Source: Streptomyces sp. ALI-76-A (GTDB taxonomy: Bacteria; Actinomycetota; Actinomycetes; Streptomycetales; Streptomycetaceae). From it: a stretch of 64,000 nt of DNA. Under the pieces are notes generated by a model. The model ran no database searches, was not told where the DNA came from, and saw nothing but the letters and a program-made list of their open reading frames with translations. The stretch covers positions 2,852,001 to 2,916,000 of the forward strand of contig NZ_JASVWB010000002.1 of the NCBI RefSeq assembly GCF_030287445.1, written 5' to 3'. How positions within the stretch are numbered: position 1 is the first letter of the stretch; each line of letters opens with the position of its first letter. Position numbers and translations under genes: made by a program. Below are positions 38,945 to 56,264 of this stretch, piece by piece.

Positions 38945-39031
38945 TACAGCACCGGCAGGTTCTTCCGCAGCTCGAAGGCGGTGACCTCGCTGCGGTACTC
39001 CTCCCACTCCTGGCGCTTGTTGCGCAGGAAG
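38945..39031. other. attL: left direct repeat holding the displaced glnA2 3' end
   Basis: An 87-bp copy of the last 28 codons of glnA2, matching 54904-54990 with one mismatch (38977 versus 54936). A 54-bp stretch (38978-39031) is fully identical and is the likely crossover core. This copy ends in a TAG stop (minus strand, 38944-38946), while intact glnA2 ends in TAA. Identity stops abruptly after 39031, the inner boundary. Confidence 0.92.
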
Positions 39032-39242
39032 TGGCGTCGGCTTGGGGCGATCTCCTCCGATCGACGTCGGCGCAGCGCTGCCGTGTGATCGAACGGCCGT
39101 CATTGGTCGTTCTTGGTCGCCGTGGGCCACCCTTCGACGGCCCACAGACGGCCCCGGACGGCCCGTCCGGGATCCCCCGTGAGACAGCCGAGAACTGCGA
39201 ATCGTGTCGCGCTCGTCCGCCAAAGGGAGCTAGCTTTTGGGC
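39032..39242. promoter_or_regulatory. Left end of the element, probable integrase arm region
   Basis: A non-coding 211-bp stretch with the repeated word TTGGTCG (two copies near 39098-39118) and a small palindrome CCCGGACG-GCC-CGTCCGGG near 39153. Such short repeats near att cores are typical of integrase/Xis arm sites. It also contains the leader of the HEPN gene, with GGGAG upstream. Confidence 0.4.
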
Positions 39243-40235
39243 ATGGACTCCGTTCTCTCGCATCGTAGCCTCTACTGGGGGGCACACAAATTCGCTCACT
39301 CAGCGATGGACGCACATGCCCGCCATGACCAAGAGGTTTTTCTGCTTCACGCAGGGGTCAGTATTGAGAGGCTAACGAAGGCAGTCCTATCAAAGACGAG
39401 CCCGTTCCTTTTGATGGAATTGAAGGGCAATGATGACACTCTCTTTCAACTTGCGGGCCTTAAGGAGCTGACGAAGGTAAGAACTGCTGGAGCGTCGCAA
39501 GTAATCGGGCGACTGAGAGCAATGGACGTTCTACCGAAGAAGGACCCTGACCTAGATGAGCTAATCGAGCTGAGAAACGGCGTGGCGCACCTTTTGACTA
39601 ACTCTTCGGAGTCATTTGATGCCTTGGGTACGTTCGCCCGCGTCAGCAATACATTGCTCCCTCACCTGGATATCGAACCCGCTGAATTCTGGGGCACTTG
39701 GAATGAGGCTATCGAAATCGCTCTCAGCGAATCTCTCGCTGAAGTTGCACGCGAGATTCGCGGGCGCATCGAACAGGCGAAGTACCGTCTGGAAAGACGC
39801 CTTGACGGTGTACCGACCGATGCCGTTGACATCATCTACGGGAATGCTAATGACGCGGCTGAAGCGGGTGGTTTCGGCGTGCGCGTCCAGTGCGGAGACT
39901 TCAGCTATCATTCCCCTAGAGAGTGTCCAGCGTGCCGCTGCACAGGACATCTTGTGGTCACGCTCCCTGGAATTGGAGCCACCCCGGAGGGTGACCCGAA
40001 CCGCAGCTTTCACTGTCCTCTATGTGATTTCAGCGCCTATGGCGTTGATGAAGTAGCAGCGGCCGGAATTGCGCGCAGCGAAGTATTCTTCAGCGGCAGC
40101 GGGGAGCCGCTCACCGCTCTCGACCCATCCGTTCTTGAAGAATACGTAACGTATGGAATGATCGACCATTCCGGTGTCGCGAAAGCGGTGCAGGTTTTCG
40201 CAGAGCAAGCAGCAGCCCGCCCTACTACCTCATGA
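39243..40235 (+). CDS. HEPN-type protein with C-terminal zinc ribbon
   Basis: A 330-aa protein of visibly lower GC than all its neighbours. Near residue 111, LIELRNGVAHL holds a canonical HEPN Rx4H motif (R111, N112, H116) between helices, the catalytic signature of many toxin and defence RNases. A C-terminal zinc ribbon is formed by C228/C231 (ECPACRCTGH) and C258/C261 (FHCPLCDFS). No signal or membrane segment. No partner antitoxin such as an MNT gene is adjacent; the XRE regulator follows 170 bp later across a terminator. RNase function is inference; a DUF4145-like non-catalytic HEPN is an alternative. Confidence 0.65.
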   Translation: MDSVLSHRSLYWGAHKFAHSAMDAHARHDQEVFLLHAGVSIERLTKAVLSKTSPFLLMELKGNDDTLFQLAGLKELTKVRTAGASQVIGRLRAMDVLPKKDPDLDELIELRNGVAHLLTNSSESFDALGTFARVSNTLLPHLDIEPAEFWGTWNEAIEIALSESLAEVAREIRGRIEQAKYRLERRLDGVPTDAVDIIYGNANDAAEAGGFGVRVQCGDFSYHSPRECPACRCTGHLVVTLPGIGATPEGDPNRSFHCPLCDFSAYGVDEVAAAGIARSEVFFSGSGEPLTALDPSVLEEYVTYGMIDHSGVAKAVQVFAEQAAARPTTS

Positions 40236-40263
40236 TCTGCTTCCACAGATCAAGCTCACTTCG

Positions 40264-40288
40264 GGGCCCGGACACTCTGTCCGGGCCC
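40264..40288 (+). terminator. Terminator/bracketing hairpin left of the XRE-flavoprotein cassette
   Basis: GGGCCCGGACA-CTC-TGTCCGGGCCC, an 11-bp stem with a 3-nt loop, 29 bp after the HEPN gene. The 19-nt centre CCCGGACACTCTGTCCGGG is identical to that of the hairpin at 42235. Confidence 0.85.
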
Positions 40289-40407
40289 TTCGTGTCGGTC
40301 GCCCTCAGACTCGTACTGGTCTTGACGTACGAGCGGTCAACTACGCGCCCAACCACGGGCTCTGTACCGTGAAACCGGCCCCCAACATCCAGCAGGAGGC
40401 AGCAGGT

Positions 40408-41643
40408 ATGCGTGGTCTTGGAGATCACCTCACCATCGGTGAGCGCATCGCGTTCTACCGGAAGCGTCGCGGCTACACGCAAGAGGTGCTCGCCGGTCTG
40501 GTCGGGCGTAGCACGGACTGGTTGGCAAAGATCGAGACGGGGCGCCGGAAGCCTCCCCGTATCGACATGCTCGCGGAGCTGTCGCGCATACTGCGCGTGC
40601 CCCTCGGGGACCTGCTCGGTCAGACGGTGCTCATGGAGGACGAGAAGCAGCAGGACGACGTTCCGGCCGTGCGTGATGCACTCATGAGCCCGCGCCGGCT
40701 TTCTCGTCTGCTCTTCGGCCCCGAGACTGAGGCGCAGCTTCCCATGCCGGCCCCCGTAGCCGTGCGTGTGGAGCAGGCATGGAACGACTACCAGGGTGGG
40801 CGGCTCGGCAGCGTCATCGCCGCGCTTCCCGCGCTCCTACAGACTGCGCAAGAGCTGGAGGAGCGAGCCGCGCGGCGCGGTGAGGACCGTAGCGACTGCT
40901 GGGCAGTGTCGGCCCGTACCCACCACCTCGCAGCAACGACCCTCGCGAAGATCGGCGAATCGGACATCTCATGGCTCGCCGCCGAGCGCGCGATGCGTGC
41001 CGCAGACGAGTCTGACGACCCACTCGTGTTGGCGTCCGCCGCGCGGTCCGGCACGCACGCCCTACTGGCCAATGGCCGGTACGACGATGCGTTGGAGCTG
41101 GGCAATACGGCCGCCGCATGGCTCTCGTCTCGTGTGACAGACAACGACCCTGCGGCACTGAGTTTGCTGGGGATGATCCACCTGCGGGCCGCTGTCGCGG
41201 CGGCCCGACATCAGGACCGGCCCACCGCAGCCGGTCTGTTGGATCGGGCCGAGGAACTCGCGGATGATCTCGGCTCGGATGAGAATTACTGGCAGACCGG
41301 CTTCGGACCCACGAACGTCCTGCTTCACCGTCTGTCGGTTGAGCTGGACCTCGACAACGTGTCGTACGTGGTGGAACACGGCCAGATCAACGTCGACCAC
41401 ATGCCGCAGGAACGCAGCGTGTCGCACCGCATCGACTTCGCGCGCGCTCTCTCGCTCAGCGGACAGGGCGATGCGGCGTTCACGGAACTTCGCACGGCTG
41501 AACGCACATCACCGCAGCTCGTACGCAACAATCCGAGGGTGCGCGAGACACTGCGGGACCTGATCAAGCAATCGCCGGTCACCGGCGGCTCGCGATCGTC
41601 CGAGGTGTTCGTGATGGCTCAACGGTGCAGGGCGGTGCAGTGA
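40408..41643 (+). CDS. XRE-family regulator with TPR-like C-terminus
   Basis: A 411-aa protein with an N-terminal helix-turn-helix (TIGERIAFYRKRRGYTQEVL, then VGRSTDWLAKIETGRRKP) and about 300 residues of helical TPR-like repeats (LAATTLAKIGESDISWLAAE, NTAAAWLSSR, RALSLSGQGDAAFTELRTAE). The architecture suits a regulator whose repeats sense a peptide or ligand. ATG at 40408 with AGGAGG 8 nt upstream. Its last base pairs overlap the flavoprotein start (GTGA), so the two are translationally coupled. A TTGAC/GTCAA inverted repeat near 40322 may be its operator. Confidence 0.85.
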   Translation: MRGLGDHLTIGERIAFYRKRRGYTQEVLAGLVGRSTDWLAKIETGRRKPPRIDMLAELSRILRVPLGDLLGQTVLMEDEKQQDDVPAVRDALMSPRRLSRLLFGPETEAQLPMPAPVAVRVEQAWNDYQGGRLGSVIAALPALLQTAQELEERAARRGEDRSDCWAVSARTHHLAATTLAKIGESDISWLAAERAMRAADESDDPLVLASAARSGTHALLANGRYDDALELGNTAAAWLSSRVTDNDPAALSLLGMIHLRAAVAAARHQDRPTAAGLLDRAEELADDLGSDENYWQTGFGPTNVLLHRLSVELDLDNVSYVVEHGQINVDHMPQERSVSHRIDFARALSLSGQGDAAFTELRTAERTSPQLVRNNPRVRETLRDLIKQSPVTGGSRSSEVFVMAQRCRAVQ

Positions 41644-42203
41644 GTTCAGGCAAGCGTGGGGTGCTCGGAGTCGTCGGGTCGGCGGCCGGAGGCGTAGAGA
41701 CGCTGCGCACCGGTCTGGTTGAGCCCGCGATGGAGCGCGGCTGGCAGGTGGCTGTCACTCTGACGCCGACCGCAGGTCAGTGGCTACGGATGAGCGGCGA
41801 GGTCGAGCAGCTGGAGAAGCTAACCGGCCTACCCGTGCGCGACGAACCGCGCTTGCTTGGCGAGGCACGACCGCATCCGCCAGTTGACTGCTACGTGGTA
41901 GCCCCTGCGTCGGCCAACATGGTGGCCAAGCTCGCCACGGGCCTGATGGACAACCAAGCGCTGACCCAGGTAGGCGAGGCGATCGGCACCCTCAGGTTGC
42001 CCGTCGTTGTCTTCCCTCGGGTCAACGCGGCGCACGCCCGCCACCCGGCATGGCAGAACCATATCGACACCCTCCGGGCGGGGGGCGTGCGCATCGTCTA
42101 CGGCCCGGAGGTGTGGCCGCTATACGAGCCACGCGAGGCGCCGGCGGGCCGTGAACTGCCGTGGGGGGCAGTGCTGGATGCCGTGGACGAAGCGACCCGA
42201 TGA
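41640..42203 (+). CDS. HFCD-type flavoprotein
   Basis: A 187-aa member of the homo-oligomeric flavin-containing Cys decarboxylase family. KRGVLGVVGSAAGGVETLR is the FMN-binding N-terminus; TPTAGQWL supplies the TPTA signature, and YVVAPASANMVAKLATGLMDN matches the conserved APAS(A/T)N-x-L/V-A-K-x-A segment. Family members oxidatively decarboxylate peptidyl cysteines or phosphopantothenoylcysteine. GTG at 41640 overlaps the XRE stop; a terminator follows. A biosynthetic or modifying role for the pair is possible but not shown. Confidence 0.85.
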   Translation: MSSGKRGVLGVVGSAAGGVETLRTGLVEPAMERGWQVAVTLTPTAGQWLRMSGEVEQLEKLTGLPVRDEPRLLGEARPHPPVDCYVVAPASANMVAKLATGLMDNQALTQVGEAIGTLRLPVVVFPRVNAAHARHPAWQNHIDTLRAGGVRIVYGPEVWPLYEPREAPAGRELPWGAVLDAVDEATR

Positions 42204-42234
42204 CGAGTCGTCAACCACCCTGACCTGCAAGGAA

Positions 42235-42265
42235 AGAGGACCCGGACACTCTGTCCGGGTCCTCT
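42235..42265 (+). terminator. Terminator right of the XRE-flavoprotein cassette
   Basis: AGAGGACCCGGACA-CTC-TGTCCGGGTCCTCT, a 14-bp perfect stem, 31 bp after the flavoprotein gene. Its central part repeats the hairpin at 40264. Confidence 0.88.
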
Positions 42266-42280
42266 GCCGTTCACGGCTAC

Positions 42281-42511
42281 ATGCTCATTGGCATGCCAGG
42301 GATCAATGAGCGAAGCGGCGAGCTGGAATGCATGACTCCTGCTGAACTCGCTTTGATCAAAGCGAGTTTGAGGGACGCTCGCCTCAGGGTCGAACGACTG
42401 CTGAGGCGTGCGGATGAACTCACGGCGATGGTGGAGTCTCGCTACCCACAAGCCGCTCAAGCCGGTCAAGCCGCTCCCCGAGCAACCGGAGAGCGTCATG
42501 AATCGTGCTGA
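42281..42511 (+). CDS. Possible small coiled-coil protein overlapping the GntR gene
   Basis: A 76-codon frame; the part from the ATG at 42332 (MTPAELALIKASLRDARLRV, then ERLLRRADELTAMVESRY) reads as a regular amphipathic helix. Its end overlaps the antisense GntR 3' end by 92 bp. There is no clear ribosome site and the codon bias is weaker than in neighbours. It may be real or may be the shadow of the GntR C-terminal helix. Confidence 0.3.
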   Translation: MLIGMPGINERSGELECMTPAELALIKASLRDARLRVERLLRRADELTAMVESRYPQAAQAGQAAPRATGERHESC

Positions 42512-42815
42512 GCTCTGCGGCCAGGGCCGCGAAAGCAGGGCTACTACCCGGCTCGGTGCCGAGGGGTGCCGCAGGGTCGCGTACGAACGTCCCGCGCCCC
42601 TGCTGAGTGAGGATCAACCCCTCGTCACGGAGTTGGCCGTACGCGCTCTGAACAGTCATGAGCTGCACGCCAAGTTGCTTGGCCAGCGCGCGAGCTGCTG
42701 GGAGCCGGTCCCCCGCGCCGTACTCGCGATCGGGGCCCGTGATCTTCTCGCGGAACTGCGCCGCAATCTCCCTGGCCGTTGGCGTGGGCTTGGGCACTTT
42801 GGGGCTCTGATCCAT
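42420..42815 (-). CDS. GntR-family repressor (KorA-like)
   Basis: A 131-aa regulator with a GntR winged helix: TAREIAAQFREKITGPDREY, then DRLPAARALAKQLGVQLMTV and GLILTQQGRGTFV. The short C-terminal helical tail without a ligand domain is typical of the KorSA/KorA regulators of AICEs and plasmids that hold back transfer and replication genes. Two palindromic operators lie directly upstream (42833, 42881). Divergent to the transfer operon it probably controls. Confidence 0.88.
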   Translation of the reverse strand: MDQSPKVPKPTPTAREIAAQFREKITGPDREYGAGDRLPAARALAKQLGVQLMTVQSAYGQLRDEGLILTQQGRGTFVRDPAAPLGTEPGSSPAFAALAAELSTIHDALRLLGERLDRLERLVGSETPPSP

Positions 42816-42832
42816 GCCCCCGAGAGTAACCG

Positions 42833-42846
42833 GACCTAGGTCAATC
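42833..42846. promoter_or_regulatory. GntR operator copy 1
   Basis: GACCTAGGTCAATC, a near-complete match to the palindrome at 42881, lies 18 bp upstream of the GntR start. Suited to autorepression. Confidence 0.75.
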
Positions 42847-42869
42847 TCACGCTGTTCCGTCGTACCCTC

Positions 42870-42898
42870 TTGACAGGCAGATTGACCTAGGTCAATCT
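42870..42898 (+). promoter_or_regulatory. Probable promoter of the transfer operon
   Basis: TTGACA at 42870, 17 nt, then CAATCT at 42893: a sigma70-like promoter whose -10 and spacer overlap the second GntR operator, so the repressor would block it. Confidence 0.6.
42881..42896. promoter_or_regulatory. GntR operator copy 2 (16-bp perfect palindrome)
   Basis: ATTGACCTAGGTCAAT, a perfect palindrome 66 bp upstream of the GntR start and overlapping the rightward promoter. Similar TGACnnnGTCA-type sites serve GntR repressors. Confidence 0.82.
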
Positions 42899-43150: not shown

Positions 43151-43319
43151 GCGCCACCGTTACGGACCGGTCGGCGGCGCCTGGACAGCAGGCACGGTCC
43201 ACCACGGCTCGCAGCACGTCATGCTGCGGCCGGCTGCCTCTCCTGCCCGTCCGTCCCGCGCATGGCGTGAGGACGTACGGACGGGAGTGCGGGGAGCCGG
43301 AACCGACTCCAACGGCGAG

Positions 43320-43348
43320 CGGCTCCCGGGGGTGCATCCCGGGAGCCG
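43320..43348 (+). terminator. Hairpin upstream of the transfer gene chain
   Basis: CGGCTCCCGGG and CCCGGGAGCCG form an 11-bp stem with a 7-nt loop, 37 bp before the DUF6284-like gene. It may attenuate transcription entering the transfer genes. Confidence 0.7.
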
Positions 43349-43385
43349 CGTTCGGGCCGTTCCTCTCTGGAAGGAACACGACCCA

Positions 43386-43649
43386 ATGGACCACATCGTT
43401 ACTGTTCAGGACGCTGTTACGGCGTTCGCCGACTTCATGGAGCCGACGGACGCGGAGCTGGGCGCGATCGAGCAGGAGATGCCGCTGATCCTGGCGGACG
43501 TCGACCTGCTGGACGCCTACATCACGACCCTGGACCGTACGCCGAACGAGCTGGACACCCGCCGCATCCGCCGCGCCCGCCGCCGGGCCCTGGCCGTGCG
43601 GGTGGAGCTGGCCAACCTGCCGACCACGGTGTCGGGGGTGGGGGCATGA
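43386..43649 (+). CDS. DUF6284-like small protein
   Basis: An 87-aa protein: MDHIVTVQDAVTAFADFMEP, then TDAELGAIEQEMPLILADVD and a basic helix RRIRRARRRALAVRVELA. Proteins with this pattern occur in AICE and plasmid transfer regions of Streptomyces. GGAAGGAA lies about 9 nt upstream of the ATG. Its stop overlaps the next start (ATGA), marking the beginning of a coupled gene chain. Role unknown. Confidence 0.7.
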   Translation: MDHIVTVQDAVTAFADFMEPTDAELGAIEQEMPLILADVDLLDAYITTLDRTPNELDTRRIRRARRRALAVRVELANLPTTVSGVGA

Positions 43650-44145: not shown

Positions 44146-45482
44146 CTGCCCTGCTCGCATGGGCGCAAGCCCACCTGCTCGCGGCCGTCACCGCTGGCGT
44201 TCTCATGCTGGCCGTGGTCGTCGCGGTGCTGTGGCCTTTGCGTCGTACCCCGGCTGCCGTGGCGGTGGCCGCGCTCGCCGCAATGGCTTGCACCGGGTAC
44301 AGCGCGGATACCTCGTGGCGGTTCGCCGAACACGAACTCGGCATGACGTCGACCGGTGAGCGGGCGGCGATGTTCGCCGCCGCGGAACTCGCCCTGTTCG
44401 CGTGTGCGCTGATGGCTCGGCAGAACCTGCGCGGACCGCAGAAAGCGCCGGGTACACCGGGTGTACTCGTGTGGCTGATCACCGGAGTACAGGTGATTCC
44501 GGCGTACTCCGAATCCGGGTTCGTCGGAGGCACCGTGCGCGCCGTGGTCGGCCCGGTCCTGGCCGCGATGCTGTGGCACCTGGCCATGGGCATCGAACTG
44601 AGGCACTCCAAGCCGGACGCCGCATCAGCCTCACTGCCGGCCGTACTCGCCCGCGAGGTACGCGAACGCCTGCTGTCCCGGCTCGGTCTGGCCGTGCGCG
44701 ACCGCACCGCCGAACAGATCAGCCGCGACCGCGCCACCGTCAAAGCGGTCGCCCTGGCGGCGAAGTTGTCCCAGATGAAGCCCGGTGCGCGGGGCCGTGC
44801 CCGGGTGGCCCGGCGCCTGTCGGTGGCCGTGGGCAAGGCACAGGCCGGCGCGTCCGAGGAGCAGCGTCACAAGCTGCTGGATCTCCTCGCCGCGCGCCGT
44901 CACGCCGCATCCCTCGCCACGATCGACCTGCCGTCCCCGTGGCAGCGCGAGGAAGACGCGGCCGGCGAGTACACGGAGTACGCCCGCGTCGAGCCTGTAC
45001 CCGAGGTGTACCCGGCGCCGTCGAACGCCGTACCCGCGGGCGTCCGGCTGCTGCCGGTCGTGGCCCGCCCCGAGCCGCGCACGCTCGAACTCGACGCGTT
45101 CCGCGGGCAGCCGGCGCGGTCCGGGGAGCCTGCCGTACTCGCCGCTGAGGCGCGGCGTACCCGGCCCGAGGTACATGCCGAGTACGTACCCGAGCAGTCT
45201 GCCGGCGAGCAGGGCGAGGACTGGCGCATCGACGGCGACTACGCCGACGGGCAGGGCAACCCGGCGCAGGGCAACCCGCTCGGTCAACTCGGTCTGGACT
45301 GGGCGGCTCAGCAGTTCAAGGACGAGCTGCTGGCCGGACAGATCCCGTCCATCCGCGCCATCAAGGACCGGCTGTCCGTGGGCCAGAACCGGGCCAAGGA
45401 GATCCAGGACGGGTTCCGGCAGGCGCAGGCCGCATGGCGGCTCGCCGGGTCGGGAGTGGAGCCGGCTGAGGCGGTGCTCTGA
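44142..45482 (+). CDS. DUF2637-type membrane protein (Spd-like)
   Basis: A 446-aa protein. The first 150 residues carry four hydrophobic segments (AVTAGVLMLAVVVAVLWPL, AAMFAAAELALFACAL, GVLVWLITGVQV, GGTVRAVVGPVLAAMLW), as in DUF2637. The rest is soluble, with a basic helical part (RDRATVKAVALAAKLSQMK) and an acidic, Val/Pro-rich linker, ending in a possible helix-turn-helix-like segment (AIKDRLSVGQNRAKEIQ). It is coupled by 4-bp overlap on both sides. DUF2637 proteins in Streptomyces elements are linked to plasmid spread; function inferred from context. Confidence 0.8.
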   Translation: MTALLAWAQAHLLAAVTAGVLMLAVVVAVLWPLRRTPAAVAVAALAAMACTGYSADTSWRFAEHELGMTSTGERAAMFAAAELALFACALMARQNLRGPQKAPGTPGVLVWLITGVQVIPAYSESGFVGGTVRAVVGPVLAAMLWHLAMGIELRHSKPDAASASLPAVLAREVRERLLSRLGLAVRDRTAEQISRDRATVKAVALAAKLSQMKPGARGRARVARRLSVAVGKAQAGASEEQRHKLLDLLAARRHAASLATIDLPSPWQREEDAAGEYTEYARVEPVPEVYPAPSNAVPAGVRLLPVVARPEPRTLELDAFRGQPARSGEPAVLAAEARRTRPEVHAEYVPEQSAGEQGEDWRIDGDYADGQGNPAQGNPLGQLGLDWAAQQFKDELLAGQIPSIRAIKDRLSVGQNRAKEIQDGFRQAQAAWRLAGSGVEPAEAVL

Positions 45483-45865
45483 TGCCGACCGCCTACGCCC
45501 GCTGCTACGACCCGACAGGCGCCCGCTACGGCATACCCACCTACCCCTGGCGCATGGCCCCGGACGGCTACGCCACCCGCCGCCAACTCCGCGCCCGCGG
45601 TCTGCGGCCCGGCGGTCAGCCGGTCGCAGCCCAGGTCATGGTCACCAACCGCAAGGCGAACACGCCCCGCGTCGCCTACCTGTACCGCGAGGACCTGGCG
45701 CTTCCCGTGCGGCCGATGACGTCGCGCAAGTGGGGCGCCCTGGCGCTGGCGATGCTCGCCCGCCGCACCTGCCCGCGCTGCCAGGTCACCTACAGCTACT
45801 GCCTGTCGACCAGGCACGGCATCTGCGGTCTGTGCATCGCCGCCGACGAACAGTGCGCCGCCTGA
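45482..45865 (+). CDS. RRQRL-motif zinc-binding protein
   Basis: A 127-aa protein whose DGYATRRQLRARGLRPGG holds the RRQRL-type motif (here RRQLR). A C-terminal zinc site follows: TCPRCQVTYSYC with GICGLCIAADEQC. Commonly found in AICEs and actinophages next to transfer genes. Start ATG shares a base with the preceding stop. Role unknown, possibly nucleic-acid binding. Confidence 0.82.
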   Translation: MPTAYARCYDPTGARYGIPTYPWRMAPDGYATRRQLRARGLRPGGQPVAAQVMVTNRKANTPRVAYLYREDLALPVRPMTSRKWGALALAMLARRTCPRCQVTYSYCLSTRHGICGLCIAADEQCAA

Positions 45866-47025: not shown

Positions 47026-49080
47026 ATGGCGCACAAGTGGACCGACCAGGACGGCCGGACCTACCCCCTCACCCTCCCCGCCGACACCGACGCAGGCACG
47101 GGCGGCAGTGTCCGGGCGTACCTGCTGCACCGGGCCAAGCCGCATCTTCCCCCGTGGCTGGGCTGGGCCGGTACCGGCCTGACCGGCGCGGTGGGGCACT
47201 GGCGGTGGGGCGACAGCGCCGCCGCCGGCGTCGGCCTCACCCTCGCCTCGGTCGCCCTGACCGGCGCCACCTGGTGGGCCGGCAAGGCCACCAGCCAGCA
47301 GCGCCGCCTGCACTCCGCCGTCACCGTCGCCGCCGGGTCCGCCTGGCTGACCGCCGCCTGCCTCGCGGGCCCGACGGCAGGTCCGATCGATGATCTGTTC
47401 CTGATGGGCGGGCCGGCGCTGGCCCTGTCGTGGAACGTGCGCATGGTCCTGCGCCACAACACCGAGGCCACCGGGCAGGGCGGCGACAAGGGCCTGATGG
47501 ACAAGATCGGGCTGGCGCGGGCGCAGATCGGGGCGGCGAAGGTGGAACCCAACCGGGTCACCGCCCCCGTCGCGTTGGCCGCGGGTGAGCAGACCAACGA
47601 CGACATGGCCAAGGCACTGGGCAACATCGCCTCAGCCCTGGACCTGCCGAAGAGCGCCGTGCGCTACACCCCCGACCCCGACTCCAACCGCCGCGGGGAC
47701 CTGGTCATCGTCCCCGAAGACATGCTGGCCGACGTCGTCGAGTGGGAGGGCCCCTCCAACCTGGGAGGCTCGATCGCGGATCCGCTGGTCATCGGCCGCT
47801 ACGACGACGGCTCCCTGCTCGTGATGTGGCTGCCCGGTGACCCGGAAGCGGGCCGCAACTCCACTCACGGCCTGGTCGCGGGCGGCACCGGTTCCGGCAA
47901 GGGCGATGCCGCCCTGAACCTGCTCACGGAGATCCTCTCCCGCCGGGACGTCATCGTGTGGTTCTCCGACCCGAAAGCGTTCCAGGACTTCGCCCCCCTG
48001 CGGCCCGGCCTGGACTGGGCCGTGGAGGGCGGATCCGGCACTGAGGTGATGGTGGCCGCTGTCGAGGCCGTCATCCCCGCCCGCACCCGCTGGCTGGGCG
48101 CCCACGGCTACCGCCAGTGGATCCCCGCGGCAGCCGAGACGCAGAACGACCCGGCACACTCCTGCCGCACGGACGGCAGCGCCTGCGGGTGCGCGGGCAT
48201 GCCGTTCCTGGTCACCTGGTTCGAGGAAGCCGCCAACACCCTGCGCGCGCTGGGAGACGACGCGTTCACCGGCATCGCGCAGGAAGCCCGCGCCGCCGGT
48301 ATCTCCCTGATCGTGTCGTTGCAGCGGCCGTCCTACGACCAGATGTCCACCAGCACCCGCGCTTCGCTGCCCTCCGTGATCGCGCTCGGTTGCGACCCGC
48401 GCGACGAGGGATTCGCCCTGCCGGACGAGGTCCTGGCCCAGGGCGCCCACCCGGGCGCGTGGGGCAACCGGCGGCCCGGCTACTGCTACGTCGTCTCTCC
48501 GGGCATCCCCGAGGACCGTTACGCCTCCCCGGGACGCACCTGGCGCTTCACCACCCGCGCGGTGCCGGTCATGGAACTGCTGGCCACCTGGGCACAGCGC
48601 AACGGCGCCACCGCCGACCCCATCACCGCCCGCGCGGCATCCAGCGTGGCCGGCAACGCCTACACCGGCCGTCCCGCCGACGACGGCGCCCTGCAGCCGA
48701 CGGCGTTGCGGGCCGTCCAGGAGGAGGATGACATGGACGACATCGGCCCGCGCGTGGACCCCGAGGACCAGCACATCGACCCCGAGGCCGAACTCCCCGA
48801 GCCGGAGCAGGGCGACGATGTCCCGCTCTTCGGGCAGGAGACGGGCCGCAAGCCCTCCCCGGAAGAGGCACGGGAGCTGTTCGCCCGGGCGCTGGAGGAG
48901 TTCGAGGACGCCGGCCAGATGGTCGTCGGCCCGAAGGACTTCATGGACTGGTGCGACCGGCACAACCTCTCCCGCCCGTGGGTGTCCGCCCGGCTCAAGG
49001 AAGCCGCCCTGGACGGGCGGCTGGAGCCGACGAACACCACCGGCCGGTGGCGCATCGTCCCCGCCCTGACAGCCGCCTGA
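47026..49080 (+). CDS. traB: TraB-type FtsK/SpoIIIE DNA translocase
   Basis: A 684-aa conjugative motor. Hydrophobic segments at about 45-75 and 85-135 anchor it. The motor has Walker A GGTGSGKGD at about residues 285-293, and Walker B FLVTWFEEA near 393, followed by IVSLQRPSYDQMSTSTRASL. The last 70 residues (DFMDWCDRHNLSRPWVSARL, then TGRWRIV) form a winged helix like the DNA-recognition domain of TraB. In Streptomyces TraB alone moves double-stranded DNA between mycelia by reading 8-bp repeats. An octamer array follows directly at 49078. GGAGGG precedes the ATG. Confidence 0.93.
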   Translation: MAHKWTDQDGRTYPLTLPADTDAGTGGSVRAYLLHRAKPHLPPWLGWAGTGLTGAVGHWRWGDSAAAGVGLTLASVALTGATWWAGKATSQQRRLHSAVTVAAGSAWLTAACLAGPTAGPIDDLFLMGGPALALSWNVRMVLRHNTEATGQGGDKGLMDKIGLARAQIGAAKVEPNRVTAPVALAAGEQTNDDMAKALGNIASALDLPKSAVRYTPDPDSNRRGDLVIVPEDMLADVVEWEGPSNLGGSIADPLVIGRYDDGSLLVMWLPGDPEAGRNSTHGLVAGGTGSGKGDAALNLLTEILSRRDVIVWFSDPKAFQDFAPLRPGLDWAVEGGSGTEVMVAAVEAVIPARTRWLGAHGYRQWIPAAAETQNDPAHSCRTDGSACGCAGMPFLVTWFEEAANTLRALGDDAFTGIAQEARAAGISLIVSLQRPSYDQMSTSTRASLPSVIALGCDPRDEGFALPDEVLAQGAHPGAWGNRRPGYCYVVSPGIPEDRYASPGRTWRFTTRAVPVMELLATWAQRNGATADPITARAASSVAGNAYTGRPADDGALQPTALRAVQEEDDMDDIGPRVDPEDQHIDPEAELPEPEQGDDVPLFGQETGRKPSPEEARELFARALEEFEDAGQMVVGPKDFMDWCDRHNLSRPWVSARLKEAALDGRLEPTNTTGRWRIVPALTAA

Positions 49081-49786: not shown

Positions 49787-50479
49787 ATGACGCAACCCAA
49801 CGACATTCGGCGAGTGCGCGGCCTACGGCCAAAGCTGCTGGACCTGTACTGCAAGCAGGGCGGCGCCGCCAAGGGCTACACCGATGCCGGGTTCGACGTG
49901 ACCGGCGTCGACAAAGACCCGCAGCCCCGCTACCCGTACCGGTTCGTTCAGGCGGACGCCATCGCGTTCGTCCTTGAGTACGGGGCGGAGTTCGGCTTCA
50001 TCCACGCGTCCCCGCCCTGCCAGTTCGACAGCGACTGCAAGCGGATCCGGGGCAACGACCACCCCGACCTGATCGACCCGACCCGCGACGCCCTGGAGAC
50101 CACCGGGCGCCCGTGGGTGATGGAAAACGTCGGCGGCGCTGTCCGGAAGCTGAACGCTCCCGTGATGCTGTGCGGGCAGATGTTCGCCCTGGCCAACTAC
50201 CGCCACCGGTTCTTTGAGGCCGGCGGCGGCTTCATCCTAGACCAGCCGGACCACCCGCCGCACCTGGTCCCCCAGGCCAAGATGGGCCGCCCCGTCCCGC
50301 CCGGCCATTACGGCCAGTTCGTCGGCAACTTCTCCGGCGTCCAGGCGGCCCGCGACCTTCTCGGGGTGCCGTGGATGAACCGCGACGGCATCCGCGAGTG
50401 CATCCCGCCCGCCTACGCCCGCCACATCGGACGGGCCGCCCTCGGCCACCTGCGCCCGGAGCTGGAGGTGGCGGCGTGA
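49787..50479 (+). CDS. Orphan cytosine-C5 DNA methyltransferase-like protein
   Basis: A 230-aa protein. Motif I region LLDLYCKQGGAAKGYTDAG and VTGVDKDPQ bind AdoMet; HASPPCQF near residue 75 is motif IV with the catalytic Cys of C5 methyltransferases; WVMENVGGA is motif VI. It is much shorter than restriction-modification enzymes (usually over 300 aa) and lacks an obvious target-recognition domain and a partner nuclease. Similar short forms occur in actinophages. It may protect the element from host restriction; activity not certain. Confidence 0.8.
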   Translation: MTQPNDIRRVRGLRPKLLDLYCKQGGAAKGYTDAGFDVTGVDKDPQPRYPYRFVQADAIAFVLEYGAEFGFIHASPPCQFDSDCKRIRGNDHPDLIDPTRDALETTGRPWVMENVGGAVRKLNAPVMLCGQMFALANYRHRFFEAGGGFILDQPDHPPHLVPQAKMGRPVPPGHYGQFVGNFSGVQAARDLLGVPWMNRDGIRECIPPAYARHIGRAALGHLRPELEVAA

Positions 50480-51309
50480 ACGAGCACCTGCACACCGCCC
50501 TGCGTCTCGCCTCCGACAACGTGCCCGTGCTGCCGCTGCGGAAGGGCAAGGTGCCTTTCGGGAACTGCCCGGCTTGTGCGCAGAACGCGTGCGGTGGTCG
50601 GCCGAACATGAAGACCCCCGGGCCCTGCGGCTGCCTGGCTCCCTGCCACGGCTGGGCCGCCGCCACCACCGACCCCGGCGTCCTGCGCTCCCGAGCATGG
50701 GCGCGGGCATGGCGCGACGCGGCAGCGGTGGCCTACCACCCCGGCGGCGCCGGCCTCACCATCGTCGACCTCGACAACGTGGAAGCCATCGCGTGGGCCC
50801 GAGGGAGCCTGCCCGCCACCCGAACCGTGCGGACGACGCGCGGTGAGCACTGGATCTACCAGGGCGTCATGCAGTCCGCCAACGCCGTACGGCCCGGCGT
50901 GGACATCAAGTCGACCATGTCCTACGTCCGCTGCCTTGGCCCCGGCACCGGCACCATGACCGCCCTGCCGGACGCCGTTCGCGCGCTGGTCGTGAAGGAA
51001 CCGCCCACCGTCCGGCCGGCGCCCCGTTCCATCTCCGTGCCCGCCCGGTCCGGCGGCTGCCCCCACCGCACGCCCGCCTTTCTGGAACGGGGCATCGCCA
51101 TGGCGGAGCAGCGCATCACGGAAGCCCGCAGCGCGGTGCACGTGGCCGTGTACCGGACGTTCCTCGCCGTGCTGTCGACCCACGGCCGGTGCGGCTGCCT
51201 CACCGACACCCACATCACACGCCTGTTCACCGCCGCGCAGACCAAGGGGGAGACCCTGCGGCACTGCACCGAGGCGTGGGCCAACGCCCGCACCACGTTG
51301 GGACTGTGA
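50476..51309 (+). CDS. Bifunctional DNA primase/polymerase (Prim-Pol)
   Basis: A 277-aa replication protein. The N-terminal Prim-Pol region has PVLPLRKGKVPFGNCPACAQ, a Cys/His-rich insertion (C-G-C-L-APCHGW), and the metal-binding IVDLDN near residue 96, followed by RTTRGEHWIYQG. The C-terminal third is helical (HVAVYRTFLAVLSTHG). GTG start overlaps the methyltransferase stop. It probably forms the replication initiator with the ATPase at 51312, i.e. the Prim-Pol type of AICE replication. Confidence 0.85.
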   Translation: MNEHLHTALRLASDNVPVLPLRKGKVPFGNCPACAQNACGGRPNMKTPGPCGCLAPCHGWAAATTDPGVLRSRAWARAWRDAAAVAYHPGGAGLTIVDLDNVEAIAWARGSLPATRTVRTTRGEHWIYQGVMQSANAVRPGVDIKSTMSYVRCLGPGTGTMTALPDAVRALVVKEPPTVRPAPRSISVPARSGGCPHRTPAFLERGIAMAEQRITEARSAVHVAVYRTFLAVLSTHGRCGCLTDTHITRLFTAAQTKGETLRHCTEAWANARTTLGL

Positions 51310-51311
51310 CC

Positions 51312-52790
51312 ATGTCCGACGACGAGAAGAACCCTGCACGCCAGGTCATCACCGACTACGCACAAAGCCACTTCCGGTACTTCCGCACCGCAGACGGCAC
51401 CGTGTACGCGCAGAAGAACGGCCACCCCGTGGCCCGCCCGATCCGCTCCCAGGGCACCACAGGAAGTCACCGGCAGGAACTCATGGTCGGCCTCTTCCGC
51501 GACGGCGTGGGCGTCTTCAACGGCACCGCCATGAAAGAGGCCCTGGACCTGATCGAAGCCCTCGCACTGACCGAGGACGTGCAGCCCGTGCACATCCGCG
51601 TCGCCCCCGGATTCGACGGAGCGACGTGGCTGGACCTGGGCCGCAACGACGGGCAATCCGTGCGTATCCACCCCACCGGCTGGGACATCCTCACCCCGGA
51701 CCCGCGTGAGGTGTGCTGGCGCCGCACCCAGCTCACCGGGGAACTGCCCCTCCCGACCAAGGACACCAACGGCAAGGGCATCGACCTGCTGATGCGGCTG
51801 TGCAACTTCGCCAACGCCGAGACCGAGTGCCTGGCCATCGCCTGGCTCATCGGCTGCCTGGCTCCCTCCGTACCCGTCCCCGCCCCGTTCCTCACCGGAC
51901 CGCAGGGCGCGGGCAAGTCCACCGGCGGACGGATGCTCGTACGGATCATCGAGGGCATGACCGGGGACCTGCGCCGGGCACCGAAGGATGAGGAAAACCT
52001 GATCGCAGCGGTAGCGGCCGGTTGGGTCACGGCGCTGGACAACCTCTCTCACATGACCCCGGACCTGTCCGACGCGATGTGCTGCATCGTCACCGGAGCC
52101 GAGAACGTCAAACGCGCCCTGTTCACCGACGGGGACGTCTTCCGCGTCGGCTACCGCCGCCCACTGCTCCTGACCGGCATCGACGTGGGAGTCATCCGCC
52201 CCGACCTCGCCGAACGCCTCCTGCCCCTGCGCCTGGAACGCCCCCGCGTCCGGCGCACCGAGGCCGAACTGTGGTCGGACTTCGCCCAGGTCCTGCCTGT
52301 CATCCTCGGCTCGCTCCTGGACCTCACCGTGCAAGTGCGGGCGGCTGAGGCGGACATCCCCACCGACCTGCGCATGGCCGACTTCGCCCACCTGTGCGCA
52401 CAGCTCGACGCGGCCACCGGTCTGGGAGCGCTCACCGCCTACCGTGCCAGCCTGGACGACCTCAATGACGACGTCATCGAGGGCGACCTGTTGGCACAGA
52501 CCGTGCTCAAGCACGCCGCCGGCATCGACCCGGACACCGAGCAGCGGATGACATCGGCCGAGTGGCTGCACTGCCTCACCGGCCTCTACAGCGGCGAGGA
52601 CTTCCGTCCCCTGCCCAAAGGGTGGCCGACCACCGGCAAGGTGCTCTCAGACCGCCTCAAGCGCCTACAGCCCACCCTCGCCGCCCGAGGCGTCCTCATC
52701 GACTGGGGACGCAACAACACAGCCCGCTACATCGAAATGGCCCGCCCGTCCGCCGCACCACCCCCGCACGCGCAGGAAGCCGCGTTCTGA
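51312..52790 (+). CDS. Replication-associated P-loop ATPase/helicase-like protein
   Basis: A 492-aa protein. PFLTGPQGAGKSTGGRML holds the Walker A loop at about residues 196-204, followed by AAVAAGWVTALDNLSHM (Walker B-like) and YRRPLLLTGIDVGV, a pattern of phage and plasmid helicase/primase ATPases. The N-terminal 170 residues (QVITDYAQSHFRYFRTADGT) are family-specific. The start lies 2 bp after the Prim-Pol stop, so they are co-translated. It likely unwinds DNA for the Prim-Pol during replication of the excised circle. Confidence 0.82.
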   Translation: MSDDEKNPARQVITDYAQSHFRYFRTADGTVYAQKNGHPVARPIRSQGTTGSHRQELMVGLFRDGVGVFNGTAMKEALDLIEALALTEDVQPVHIRVAPGFDGATWLDLGRNDGQSVRIHPTGWDILTPDPREVCWRRTQLTGELPLPTKDTNGKGIDLLMRLCNFANAETECLAIAWLIGCLAPSVPVPAPFLTGPQGAGKSTGGRMLVRIIEGMTGDLRRAPKDEENLIAAVAAGWVTALDNLSHMTPDLSDAMCCIVTGAENVKRALFTDGDVFRVGYRRPLLLTGIDVGVIRPDLAERLLPLRLERPRVRRTEAELWSDFAQVLPVILGSLLDLTVQVRAAEADIPTDLRMADFAHLCAQLDAATGLGALTAYRASLDDLNDDVIEGDLLAQTVLKHAAGIDPDTEQRMTSAEWLHCLTGLYSGEDFRPLPKGWPTTGKVLSDRLKRLQPTLAARGVLIDWGRNNTARYIEMARPSAAPPPHAQEAAF

Positions 52791-52819
52791 CCGGCTAGCC
52801 CCGGGCTACCGCCCGCACA

Positions 52820-52856
52820 AGCAAGAGGAGCACCCAGCCCGCGTGCTCCTCTTGCT
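52820..52856 (+). terminator. Terminator after the replication genes
   Basis: AGCAAGAGGAGCAC and GTGCTCCTCTTGCT form a 14-bp perfect stem with a 9-nt loop, 30 bp after the ATPase stop. Confidence 0.87.
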
Positions 52857-52972
52857 GTTCGGCGGCGGCGCCGCCCTGCCCAGGTCGTGCCGCGAAGCGG
52901 CTCCTTCTTCACGCCCTGAGCCGCACACCACAACAGACACCACCCCCTCCTTTGTCCGAAGTAGAGAGACGC

Positions 52973-53181
52973 TGCGTCACCTGCGTCACCCACGCACCCC
53001 AAACGGCCCGCGACCTGCCGAAAGAGCGGTGACGCAGACGGCCCCCCGCTGCGTCACCCCGCGTCACCTGCGTCACCCCGTGACGCAGGTCTGCGTCACC
53101 CGTGACACAACCTCTGACCCCTGCGTCACCCAAAAGCCGCAGGTCAGCGCCATAAGTGACGCACATGACGCAGGTGACGCA
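52973..53181. repeat. TGCGTCAC iteron array, candidate replication origin
   Basis: Ten exact copies of TGCGTCAC or its complement GTGACGCA in 209 bp. Six are forward (52973, 52982, 53050, 53069, 53092, 53122) and four reverse (53029, 53080, 53156, 53174); near-copies lie at 53061, 53102 and 53165. It lies between the replication genes and xis, in DNA without a convincing gene. Binding by the initiator at an origin is the most likely role; use as TraB or Xis sites cannot be excluded. Confidence 0.7.
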
Positions 53182-53238
53182 GAAATCCGCACCTCGGACA
53201 CACGCGGACTCCCGACACATCACGCACGGAGGCGCCTC

Positions 53239-53481
53239 ATCGATACCGCACTTGATCGGCCGGACCCCCGCGCCATCCTCCGTAGCGGTCTCCCCGACCG
53301 CTACCTCACCCCCGACGACATCGCCGAGATCTTCGAGGTGCCCAAGGAAACGGTCTACCAGTGGCGCAAGAAACGGACCGGCCCGCCCGGATTCCGCATC
53401 GGCAAGTACGTCCGCTACGACCCCGCCGATGTGAGCGCCTACATCACTCAGCGCAAGGCCGAGGACGCCGCCGCTGCGTGA
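53239..53481 (+). CDS. xis: Excisionase-type helix-turn-helix protein (Xis)
   Basis: A MerR/excisionase-like winged helix: DRYLTPDDIAEIFEVPKETV, then YQWRKKRTGPPGFRIGKYVR and YDPADVSAYI. It lies just before int, as in most AICEs, and would bind arm sites to steer Int toward excision. The start is a problem: no ATG, GTG or TTG is in frame close by. GGAGG at 53228 stands 6 nt before an in-frame ATC at 53239, used here; the nearest normal start is a GTG at 53029 inside the iterons. Confidence 0.75.
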   Translation: MDTALDRPDPRAILRSGLPDRYLTPDDIAEIFEVPKETVYQWRKKRTGPPGFRIGKYVRYDPADVSAYITQRKAEDAAAA

Positions 53482-53497
53482 ACCAATAAATCACCCA

Positions 53498-53535
53498 CAG
53501 AGCAGGGAGAGCCGTTCGCGGTTCTCCCTGCTCTG
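53498..53535 (+). terminator. Hairpin between xis and int
   Basis: CAGAGCAGGGAGA and TCTCCCTGCTCTG form a 13-bp stem with a 12-nt loop, 17 bp after xis. It can uncouple or attenuate int expression. Confidence 0.82.
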
Positions 53536-53558
53536 TGTCGAGAGAGGACTACTGCCAG

Positions 53559-54827
53559 ATGGCAGGCCACATCCAAGACCGGTGGTACAAGACCGAAGCC
53601 GACGCCGCCGGCAAGCCCCGCCGGGTACGGACGGATCGCTACGGCATGGGCCGGCGATACCGCGCCCGCTACATAGGTCCGGACGGGACAGAGAAGAGCA
53701 AGTCATTCCCCGACGGACAGAAGCGACTGGCTGACCAGTGGCTTGCCCACATCGAGGCCGACATGTCGCGCGGTCAGTACGTCGACCCTGCGGCCAGCCG
53801 CGTTACGTTCCGGCAGTACGCCGAGAAGTGGCTGAAGACGCAGACGACCGAGATGACCACGCGAGAGTCAGTCGAGTCCTCGATTCGCGGCCACGCGATT
53901 CCATACCTCGGGTCGCGACCGCTCGGTTCCTTCAAGCCGGAACACATCCGGGATTGGCTGAGCGAATTGGAGGGGGCCGTCCCTGCCTCGTCGTACCGGC
54001 GCGTGATCTACAACAACGTTTCGACGGTCCTCAATGCGGCTGTCGACGACGGCCACCTGTCGAAGAACCCTTGCCACGCGCAATCCGTGCGGCCCCCTGC
54101 GGCAGGAACTGGCCGCGTTGTGCCGTGGAGCGCAGAGCGCATTTTCGCCGTACGGGCAGCTCTGCCGGAGCGCTACCGCGCGACGGTCGACCTCGGGGGC
54201 GGATGCGGACTCCGGCAAGGGGAGATCTTCGGGCTTCCTGTCGACGAAATCGGCTTCGACTCCGGATGGCTGCACATCGCCAATCAGGTAAAGGTGACGA
54301 AGCAGGGTCTCGTGTTCTCCCCGCCGAAGCGGAACAAGGTCCGCGACGTCCCCTTGCCGGACCGCGTCGCGCACGTCCTCAAGCAGCATATGGAGACGTT
54401 CCCCCCGGTAGAGATCACCCTGCCGTGGCTCCGGCCGGATGGTCCGCTCGTCACCAAGCGGCTGCTGTTCACTCGTCTCGATGGCGCGGGGGCGGTTCGA
54501 CGAACCGACTTCAACGACCGGGCTTGGAAACCCGCTCTTGTCGCGGCTGGGGTGATCCCCCAGCCGAAGCCGGGCGAGCGGCACCAGGCAGCCCGCGAAC
54601 ACGGCATGCACGCCCTCAGGCACTTCTACGCCTCGGTGCTGCTGGACGCCGGCGAGAACGTCAAGGCGCTGAGTCACTACCTCGGGCACAACGATCCGGG
54701 GTTCACGCTCCGGGTCTACACGCACCTCATGCCGAGCAGCGACGCACGGGCCCGGAAGGCCGTGGACGGCCTGTACGAGGGCACCGTTCCGGCGCCTGAC
54801 GGCCCAGAGACGGCCCAGGGGCAGTGA
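53559..54827 (+). CDS. int: Tyrosine-family site-specific integrase
   Basis: A 422-aa recombinase. The N-terminal arm-binding part (YRARYIGPDGTEKSKSFPDG) is followed by a SAM-like core-binding domain (TFRQYAEKWLKTQ) and the catalytic domain. Active-site residues are visible: Arg in GGCGLRQGEIFGLP, H-x2-R in MHALRHFYAS, His in LGHNDPGFTLRVYTH and the Tyr of VYTHL. The ATG at 53559 is preferred because the GTG at 53535 lies in the hairpin. It lies 76 bp from attR, where it would recombine the glnA2 core site. Confidence 0.93.
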   Translation: MAGHIQDRWYKTEADAAGKPRRVRTDRYGMGRRYRARYIGPDGTEKSKSFPDGQKRLADQWLAHIEADMSRGQYVDPAASRVTFRQYAEKWLKTQTTEMTTRESVESSIRGHAIPYLGSRPLGSFKPEHIRDWLSELEGAVPASSYRRVIYNNVSTVLNAAVDDGHLSKNPCHAQSVRPPAAGTGRVVPWSAERIFAVRAALPERYRATVDLGGGCGLRQGEIFGLPVDEIGFDSGWLHIANQVKVTKQGLVFSPPKRNKVRDVPLPDRVAHVLKQHMETFPPVEITLPWLRPDGPLVTKRLLFTRLDGAGAVRRTDFNDRAWKPALVAAGVIPQPKPGERHQAAREHGMHALRHFYASVLLDAGENVKALSHYLGHNDPGFTLRVYTHLMPSSDARARKAVDGLYEGTVPAPDGPETAQGQ

Positions 54828-54833
54828 GACACC

Positions 54834-54866
54834 ATGGGGCCGACGGTCCACGACCGTCGGCCCCAT
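54834..54866. terminator. Element-borne copy of the glnA2 terminator
   Basis: ATGGGGCCGACGGT and ACCGTCGGCCCCAT form a 14-bp stem with a 5-nt loop between the convergent int and glnA2 genes. It is homologous to the hairpin at 38877 outside attL, so the element supplies a replacement terminator along with the gene end. Confidence 0.85.
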
Positions 54867-54902
54867 CAGTCGAATCAGCGGGAAACCCGCCCTGACCTGC
54901 CC

Positions 54903-56264
54903 TTACAGCACCGGCAGGTTCTTCCGCAGCTCGAACGCGGTGACCTCGCTGCGGTACTCCTCCCACTCCTGGCGCTTGTTGCGCAGGAAGAAGTCGAAGA
55001 CGTGCTCGCCGAGCGTCTCGGCGACCAGGTCGCTGCGTTCCATCAGGGTCAGGGCCTCGCCGAGGTTCTGCGGGAGGGGCTCGATGCCCATCGCGCGGCG
55101 CTCGGCGTCGGAGAGGGCCCAGACGTCGTCCTCGGCGCCCGGGGGAAGCTCGTAGCCCTCCTCGACGCCCTTGAGGCCGGCGGCCAGGAGCATCGCGTAC
55201 GCCAGGTACGGGTTGGCGCCGGAGTCGATGGAGCGGACCTCGATGCGGGCCGAGCCGGTCTTGCCGGGCTTGTACATCGGGACGCGGACCAGGGCGGAGC
55301 GGTTGTTGTGGCCCCAGCAGATGTAGGACGGGGCCTCGCCGCCGGCGCCGGCGGTGCGCTCGGTGCCGCCCCAGATGCGCTTGTAGGAGTTCACCCACTG
55401 GTTGGTGATGGCGGCGATCTCCGCGGCGTGCTTGAGCAGGCCCGCGATGAAGGAACGGCCGACCTTGGAGAGCTGGTACTCCGCGCCGGACTCGTAGAAG
55501 GCGTTGCGGTCGCCCTCGAAGAGCGAGAGGTGCGTGTGCATGCCGGAGCCGGGGTGCTCGGAGAACGGCTTGGGCATGAAGGTCGCCTGGACGCCCTGCT
55601 CCAGCGCCACCTGCTTCATGACCAGGCGGAAGGTCATGATGTTGTCGGCCGTGGAGAGCGCGTCGGCGTAGCGCAGGTCGATCTCCTGCTGGCCGGGGGC
55701 GCCCTCGTGGTGGGAGAACTCGACCGAGATGCCCATCGACTCCAGCATGGTGATCGCCTGGCGGCGGAAGTCCATGCCGATGTTCTGCGGGGTGTGGTCG
55801 AAGTAGCCGGAGTTGTCGGCCGGGGTGGGGCGCGAGCCGTCGAGCGGGCGGTCCTTCAGCAGGAAGAACTCGATCTCCGGGTGGGTGTAGAAGGTGAAGC
55901 CCAGGTCGGAGGTGCGGGCCAGGGCGCGCTTGAGCACGTACCGCGGGTCCGCGAAGGACGGGGAGCCGTCCGGCATGAGGATGTCGCAGAACATCCGGGC
56001 GGTGCCGGGGGCCTCCGCGCGCCACGGCAGGACCTGGAAGGTCGACGGGTCCGGCTTGGCGATCATGTCGGACTCGTAGACCCGGGCGAAGCCCTCGATC
56101 GCGGAGCCGTCGAAACCGATGCCCTCGTCGAAAGCCTGCTCGAGCTCGGCCGGGGCCACGGCGACGGACTTGAGGAAGCCCAGCACGTCCGTGAACCACA
56201 GGCGTACGAACCGGATGTCACGCTCCTCCAACGTCCGGAGCACGAACTCCTGCTGCTTGTCCAT
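54903..56264 (-). CDS. glnA2: GSI-like gamma-glutamylpolyamine synthetase GlnA2
   Basis: A 453-aa GSI-fold enzyme. FVRLWFTDVLGFLKSVAV and GFDGSAIEGFARVYESD form the N-terminal part; EIEFFLL, GAPGQQEIDLRYADAL, HTHLSLFEG and RSALVRVP the catalytic barrel. A Tyr precedes ELPPG near residue 358, the place of the adenylylated Tyr in GSI. In S. coelicolor the like protein GlnA2 glutamylates polyamines instead of ammonia; this is taken from knowledge of the family. The start at 56264 (GGGGAAG upstream) gives the usual length. Codons from 54990 down are duplicated at attL; the last part is probably element-derived and unchanged in protein. Confidence 0.88.
   Translation of the reverse strand: MDKQQEFVLRTLEERDIRFVRLWFTDVLGFLKSVAVAPAELEQAFDEGIGFDGSAIEGFARVYESDMIAKPDPSTFQVLPWRAEAPGTARMFCDILMPDGSPSFADPRYVLKRALARTSDLGFTFYTHPEIEFFLLKDRPLDGSRPTPADNSGYFDHTPQNIGMDFRRQAITMLESMGISVEFSHHEGAPGQQEIDLRYADALSTADNIMTFRLVMKQVALEQGVQATFMPKPFSEHPGSGMHTHLSLFEGDRNAFYESGAEYQLSKVGRSFIAGLLKHAAEIAAITNQWVNSYKRIWGGTERTAGAGGEAPSYICWGHNNRSALVRVPMYKPGKTGSARIEVRSIDSGANPYLAYAMLLAAGLKGVEEGYELPPGAEDDVWALSDAERRAMGIEPLPQNLGEALTLMERSDLVAETLGEHVFDFFLRNKRQEWEEYRSEVTAFELRKNLPVL
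54904..54990. other. attR: right direct repeat within glnA2
   Basis: The 87-bp counterpart of 38945-39031, forming the last 28 codons of the intact glnA2. The single difference (54936) is GCG versus GCC in an Ala codon, so the protein end is the same. Identity stops at 54990, where the chromosomal part of glnA2 continues. Confidence 0.92.

Follow-up and report, generated by a model that had tools for sequence, protein, structure and literature searches.

Genes and repeats at the glnA2 locus

The window analyzed here is a 64,000-nucleotide stretch of Streptomyces sp. ALI-76-A (contig NZ_JASVWB010000002.1, positions 2,852,001 to 2,916,000). It contains an element of the actinomycete integrative and conjugative element (AICE) type, which lies between a detached 87-bp 3′ end of glnA2 (38945 to 39031) and an intact glnA2 gene (54903 to 56279, minus strand). 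The features needed for its description are the following, in window positions:

38877 to 38907, no strand: hairpin past the host-side glnA2 end, seen in the sequence, with a similar hairpin at the right end
38945 to 39031, no strand: left attachment site, i.e., the detached 87-bp glnA2 3′ end, with its own stop codon TAG at 38944 to 38946 on the minus strand
46414 to 47013, plus: TraA, plasmid transfer protein (NF041213, 255.3 bits, cut-off 80)
47026 to 49080, plus: TraB, plasmid transfer protein (NF041214, 1013.5 bits, cut-off 800)
50479 to 51309, plus: Prim-Pol replication protein (PF09250); the frame was scanned from 50479, and the true start codon may differ
51189 to 52790, plus: protein after Prim-Pol, probably for replication (no family above threshold)
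52843 to 53481, plus: Xis-like HTH_17 protein (PF12728), directly upstream of int
53535 to 54827, plus: tyrosine integrase (int) of the glnA2-site clade (PF00589, PF14659; tree)
54828 to 54902, no strand: int-glnA2 interval of 75 bp, containing a hairpin (54834 to 54866) and, ahead of the glnA2 stop codon, a TGACC motif
54904 to 54990, no strand: right attachment site, i.e., the 87-bp glnA2 3′ end, the stop-proximal part presumably supplied by the element; stop codon TAA at 54903 to 54905, minus strand
54903 to 56279, minus: intact glnA2 of the glutamine synthetase family, 458 aa (PF00120, E 4e-124; PF03951; gene order)

The element is bounded by a direct repeat of 110 nt (38922 to 39031 and 54881 to 54990; 92% identity, spacing 15,959), the 87-bp core of which (38945 to 39031 and 54904 to 54990) contains one mismatch. 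The stop codons of int and glnA2 are 75 bp apart, so that the integrase gene adjoins the attachment site. The detached end still encodes the same 28 residues as the end of the living gene, and the two flanks, when joined in silico, give a glnA2 frame of 458 aa that ends in identical residues and a TAG stop codon. Beyond the stop codon, both glnA2-end copies have a hairpin and short motifs in common; the hairpin at 54834 to 54866 has a folding energy of -43.0 kcal/mol (z -5.9) and may function as a terminator.

As judged from the family models, the combination of a tyrosine integrase, an HTH_17 Xis-like protein, Prim-Pol, TraB, TraA, a GntR-family regulator, and cargo is an AICE gene set. The HTH_17 protein is a candidate for the recombination directionality factor (Xis). 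TraB scored 21.6 bits against the general Pfam model FtsK_SpoIIIE, below the cut-off of 24. The gene list of the original prediction was recovered for the integrase and the Xis-like, Prim-Pol, TraB, and GntR proteins, except that the "Spd-like" gene was matched by no family model: among the open reading frames (ORFs) scanned there was no Spd family match; TraA and a zinc-binding protein were identified. That the target is no tRNA gene, as the same prediction held, agrees with the ARAGORN result, which gave no tRNA gene in the 64-kb window; a tRNA gene as target was rejected on this basis. Excision would require Int and Xis and yield a circle, which Prim-Pol would replicate and TraB would transfer as DNA; the element is probably self-transmissible. 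Taking together the evidence described here and below, we hold it to be very likely that the element is an AICE with a tyrosine integrase specific for the glnA2 3′ end, and that it swaps this end on insertion.

The integrase and its target site

The genomes were searched with the integrase, and the best 80 loci were kept. glnA2 was convergent with int and within 5 kb of it in 47 of these, all with an integrase identity of at least 70%. The remaining 33 loci consisted of 30 at 64 to 68% identity, one of which (L077) is on a contig that ends 125 bp past int, plus L045, L055, and L017; the contig of L055 (73% integrase) ends 79 bp past int. With the window included, there were 48 glnA2-site rows, and in 43 of them 81 to 94 bp separated int from glnA2 as measured by match ends. 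Integrases adjacent to glnA2 occurred in Streptomyces, Kitasatospora, Nonomuraea, and Acrocarpospora. Among 296 congeneric genomes, an integrase of at least 70% identity was present in 18 others among the matches listed and lay beside glnA2 in all 18, with 1.0 to 4.5 kb between the two genes in G056, G024, and G269; around the integrase of a further genome (G071, 68%), no glnA2 was present in 39 kb. This recurrence in other Streptomyces excludes a chance repeat and, together with the 87-bp repeats and the gene content, bears out the claim that an AICE sits in glnA2.

A tree of 82 integrases contained one branch (bootstrap 100, Shimodaira-Hasegawa-like approximate likelihood ratio test 96) that splits glnA2-site from other-site rows, with L045 as the sole exception. 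The site changes on this tree number two in all with three rows of unassigned site left out, and more if those rows count as a third group; the distant integrases L003 and L004 were dropped, an earlier tree including both having been rooted inside the glnA2 set. Two sister integrases are located at other protein-coding ends: L057 at that of NusG and L002, from the same genome as the window, at that of a histidine-phosphatase-family gene. The clade represents a well-defined family of site-specific integrases that is new; the element itself is of no new kind. The L002 integrase (C2:4303580-4304830, 60% identity) contains an in-frame TGA and is positioned beside the 3′ end of the histidine-phosphatase-family gene.

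The detached copy was followed in 23 genomes chosen by integrase alone (batches of 10, 8, and 5), of which the final five and several others overlap the best 80 loci and are therefore not independent for adjacency. A detached glnA2 end was located 3.2 to 26 kb away in 18 of the 23, recurring at 81 to 88 bp of an 88-bp query beside the integrase clade; in the other five (G203, G194, G181, G373, and G343) the contig ends after 1.4 to 9.2 kb. Conversely, 60 relatives, all lacking an intact int beside glnA2, were chosen by glnA2 similarity, 40 of them hand-picked from the glnA2 matches listed, with integrase matches in view and mostly on long contigs. A second glnA2 copy was absent in 58 of the 60 within the 16 to 17 kb examined (8.5 kb for L106), so that these have a single glnA2 end. 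Neither a lack of single uninterrupted glnA2 ends in element-free genomes nor repeats unrelated to the integrase, both named in the original prediction as findings that would speak against it, was thus encountered. In 28 of the 60, a single alignment ran from just before the stop codon through 87 bp into glnA2; such alignments extend only about 66 bp past the stop, into the hairpin common to element ends, and say little about the host flank. Direct repeats can also arise by homologous duplication, and the 87-bp copies might in principle reflect chance or a segmental glnA2 duplication unrelated to the integrase. As the copy stands beside the same integrase clade in the integrase-chosen genomes and is missing from nearly all relatives without an intact int, the probability of this explanation is negligible.

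The two relatives with second copies were L089 and L090, and C-terminal pieces of an integrase were detected in L089 and L145. Such relics at the same site, together with the stops that several integrases of the wider sample contain, would be compatible with a decayed, no longer mobile island, the repeats of which are old footprints. In the window, however, int, TraB, TraA, Prim-Pol, and glnA2 are all open frames, and 28 intact residues are unexpected for an old noncoding fragment; we therefore regard decay of the window's element as unlikely.

Apart from the integrase end, the glnA2-site elements differ in content. The protein after Prim-Pol is 83 to 93% identical in 10 of them (G241, G061, G066, G013, G056, G240, G123, G024, G269, and G374); in L031 and L021 it is incomplete or diverged, and it was not found in the other glnA2-site elements examined. 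Many likewise have no recognizable relative of the window TraB, and the elements therefore appear to be mosaic, with a common integrase end and a variable remainder. This absence, and the occurrence of integrases of such kind in phages, would also fit a phage or a nonconjugative integrative plasmid. TraB and TraA nevertheless exceed curated cut-offs, a Prim-Pol is present, and the attachment region had no match in 50,697 phage records, a result obtained with no separate search for phage structural genes; a phage or nonconjugative plasmid is accordingly very improbable. In the plasmid collection, the attachment region had one match, a Nonomuraea record of 11.85 Mb, and the integrase had two plasmid-record matches at about 62%. 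The detached copies of G240 and G263 (L162/L163 and L148/L149) have an outer flank resembling the right end of another element, which suggests tandem insertion.

Paired glnA2 ends and the proposed end swap

Host and element ends were compared in 23 pairs, i.e., the window, the 18 genomes with a detached copy, and L021, L031, L032, and L053, which were included because a repeat or an additional glnA2 end lies no more than 10 kb away and which stand outside the figure of 18 of 23; the relics L089 and L090 are not among the pairs. The two ends differed by 40 synonymous versus 5 amino-acid codon differences. Stop codons of the living gene were TAA in 18, TAG in 4, and TGA in 1 pair, those of the detached end TAG in 11, TAA in 8, and TGA in 4, and those of the 60 relatives TAG in 42 and TAA in 18. 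The synonymous bias and the different stops lead to the conclusion that insertion brings in a functional coding end with its stop codon, followed by the hairpin, in line with the earlier proposal that the last codons are replaced on each insertion. As read from the frames, the GlnA2 protein is unchanged by the insertion here and the gene stays whole.

According to the proposed mechanism, the attachment site of the element (attP) would carry its own version of the final 28 glnA2 codons, in frame and with the stop codon, adjoining the hairpin and the int 3′ end. Within the 87-bp identity, and most probably toward the side distant from the stop, recombination would split the host glnA2 near its end; the glnA2 body would gain the last codons, stop codon, and hairpin of the element, whereas the host's own last codons would remain as a fragment at its far end. 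Of 43 intervals between int and glnA2, 6 failed the search pattern and were dropped, and among the 37 retained a strong hairpin (z below -2) and TGACC before the stop codon were each present in 36. TGACC was also present in 16 of the 60 relatives, where it may represent footprints of past insertions or native sequence.

The point of strand exchange can be placed approximately from the mismatches, of which 62 lie at 0 to 54 nt from the stop and 11 at 55 to 86 nt. Over all 23 pairs, mismatch-free stretches of at least 7 bp remain at 25 to 32, 55 to 62, and 72 to 79 nt from the stop, and for this reason exchange in the far part is likely, not certain. A crossover nearer the stop, with few codons of the living gene derived from the element, could make use of the stretch at 25 to 32 nt. 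The mismatch distribution argues against it, however, as do 13 pairs with a full-length int, which leave 55 to 84 nt as the sole long mismatch-free stretch, and we consider it quite unlikely.

Host and element ends of a pair are closer to one another than to the ends of other pairs: within pairs, amino-acid differences averaged 0.22, compared with 2.63 between host i and element j, and synonymous differences averaged 1.74, compared with 4.88. In 5,000 random pairings, the closeness of the real pairs was never reached, and host and element ends agree even at rare residues. Exchange among close relatives, gene conversion, or selection for a fitting C terminus can each explain this closeness, and relatedness very likely contributes. 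A compatibility filter, by which the GlnA2 C terminus of an element must fit the resident enzyme, so that elements are held in host lineages by their protein end or have their ends retemplated by the host, is a tentative idea to which we give rather less weight than to its absence.

Several observations weigh against the interpretation of these loci as AICEs that are specific for glnA2 and swap its end. Five of the 48 glnA2-site rows (L013, L016, L041, L046, and L053) have an int-glnA2 gap of 1.2 to 4.5 kb. L017, with an 89% integrase, shows 1.9 kb downstream without glnA2 and then the contig end, and L045, a Streptosporangium locus with a 71% integrase, is near an Smr gene and not beside glnA2. 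A relative of the window TraB occurs in only 4 of the 22 other paired elements (G040, G240, G068, and G024; 46 to 76%), so that not every glnA2-site element is shown to be conjugative. The TAA bias of the living gene is weaker in the larger glnA2-site set (TAA 24, TAG 13 of 37), and the repeats could have been homogenized after insertion.

Some of these loci have peculiarities of their own. glnA2 of L013 contains a gap of Ns. In L045 (5070-5250), the sequence past int continues with the TGACCTGC end typical of glnA2-site elements and then on to the Smr gene; this location is possibly a secondary site. Cargo is inserted between the int 3′ end and glnA2 in L041 (11292-12848), L053 (11230-12612), L046 (11341-12174), and L016 (11316-14479), encoding an ApeA-type HEPN protein (also PADLOC PDC-S58), a HEPN/RES protein, an HNH protein, and AAA-ATPase-like proteins, and the position is possibly a defense-cargo slot beside the attachment site.

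Host gene, accessory genes, and known systems

The name glnA2 rests on gene order, as NCBIfam classes the protein as a type I glutamate--ammonia ligase, with 444.7 bits against a cut-off of 429.15. The comparison of gene order also drew on the locus number of glnE. In the own genome, a strong glutamine synthetase match at contig position 2849449 (taken as glnA) is followed by a weak match at 2857573, which we take to be glnII, glnE (2886852 to 2889074), and glnA2 (2906903). This order, compared with the S. coelicolor loci SCO2198, SCO2210, and SCO2241 given in the available part of PMC8998196, fits glnA2. The same source describes GlnA2 as a gamma-glutamylpolyamine synthetase; for the window's gene, the predicted role in polyamine use agrees with the gene order and finds no support in the family model, the NCBIfam gamma-glutamylputrescine synthetase model scoring 315 bits, below its cut-off of 650. 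The own genome has four Gln-synt_C matches, compared with five glutamine synthetase and glutamine synthetase-like genes named for S. coelicolor in that text, and one glutamine synthetase-like gene may be absent.

The remaining genes of the element and the neighboring host gene are as follows:

38080 to 38526, plus: glyoxalase-family gene (PF00903)
39237 to 40235, plus: 332-aa cargo gene without a family match above cut-off (Pfam, NCBIfam, PADLOC)
40174 to 41643, plus: HTH/NsdA-like TPR regulator (PF13560; NF053720 below cut-off); the listed ORF start may be too early
41625 to 42203, plus: flavoprotein-family gene (PF02441)
42420 to 42815, minus: GntR-family regulator (PF00392)
43221 to 43649, plus: DUF6284 protein (PF19801)
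45482 to 45865, plus: RRQRL-motif zinc-binding protein (NF041638, 142.5 bits, cut-off 65)
49787 to 50479, plus: possible DNA methylase, cargo (weak DrmMII match, E 2.3e-5; no Pfam family)

The 332-aa cargo gene is located in the kilobase with the lowest G+C content of the window (39001 to 40000, 58.3%). A glyoxalase-family gene is convergent with glnA2 at 61 to 126 bp in the relatives L096, L103, L125, and L133 and elsewhere more distant or not found; the one at 38080 to 38526 is likely the original host neighbor of glnA2.

These results define a clade of integrases from AICE-type elements that is directed at one protein-coding target. Its chromosomal attachment site (attB) is outside tRNA genes and might serve site-specific integration vectors, and the locus provides a natural experiment on how mobile DNA can exchange the end of a functional enzyme and leave it intact. 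The compatibility filter, if true, would mean that integration at a protein-coding gene restricts gene transfer. No report of glnA2 as an integration site was found in the literature on AICEs, glutamine synthetase, and genomic islands within reach, supplementary tables and most subscription papers lying outside it; neither does the available part of PMC11755657 report this site, and glnA or glutamine synthetase is absent from the main text of PMC9513070.

According to the accessible text of PMC3218068, tRNA genes are the sites of the vast majority of tyrosine-integrase AICEs, the pSLS subfamily excepted. Like pSAM2 and SLP1, as described there, the glnA2 element combines an integrase, a replication module (e.g., Prim-Pol), and a single FtsK/SpoIIIE-type transfer protein with direct repeats at a gene 3′ end. 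Unlike most tyrosine-integrase AICEs, it uses a protein-coding gene and must bring a translatable end, and it resembles the pSLS integrase subfamily in having a tyrosine integrase that departs from tRNA integration. The rarity implied by the original prediction thus holds insofar as tRNA genes are the usual sites of AICEs, but protein-coding sites are already in print (PMC3218068 and PMC9513070, in the parts available). In a Streptomyces rhizosphere population, conjugative elements of several types occupied 14 protein-coding, 36 tRNA, and 1 intergenic site (PMC9513070); the glnA2 element shares with these (e.g., those at rlmN and a glycosyltransferase gene) the use of protein-coding sites and the decay and accretion at the site. 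Integrase sequence and site are stated to be uncorrelated for those elements, whereas the glnA2 site goes with a single clade of integrases. As noted in PMC12884075, the gene into which an island inserts is often restored by it. PAISt of Streptomyces turgidiscabies, located at the bacA 3′ end (PMC4057263, in part), is a further case of site-specific integration at the 3′ end of a protein-coding gene in Streptomyces; it differs from the glnA2 element in its 8-bp palindromic site and its nature as a large island, and no swap of the gene end is stated in the part of that source consulted.

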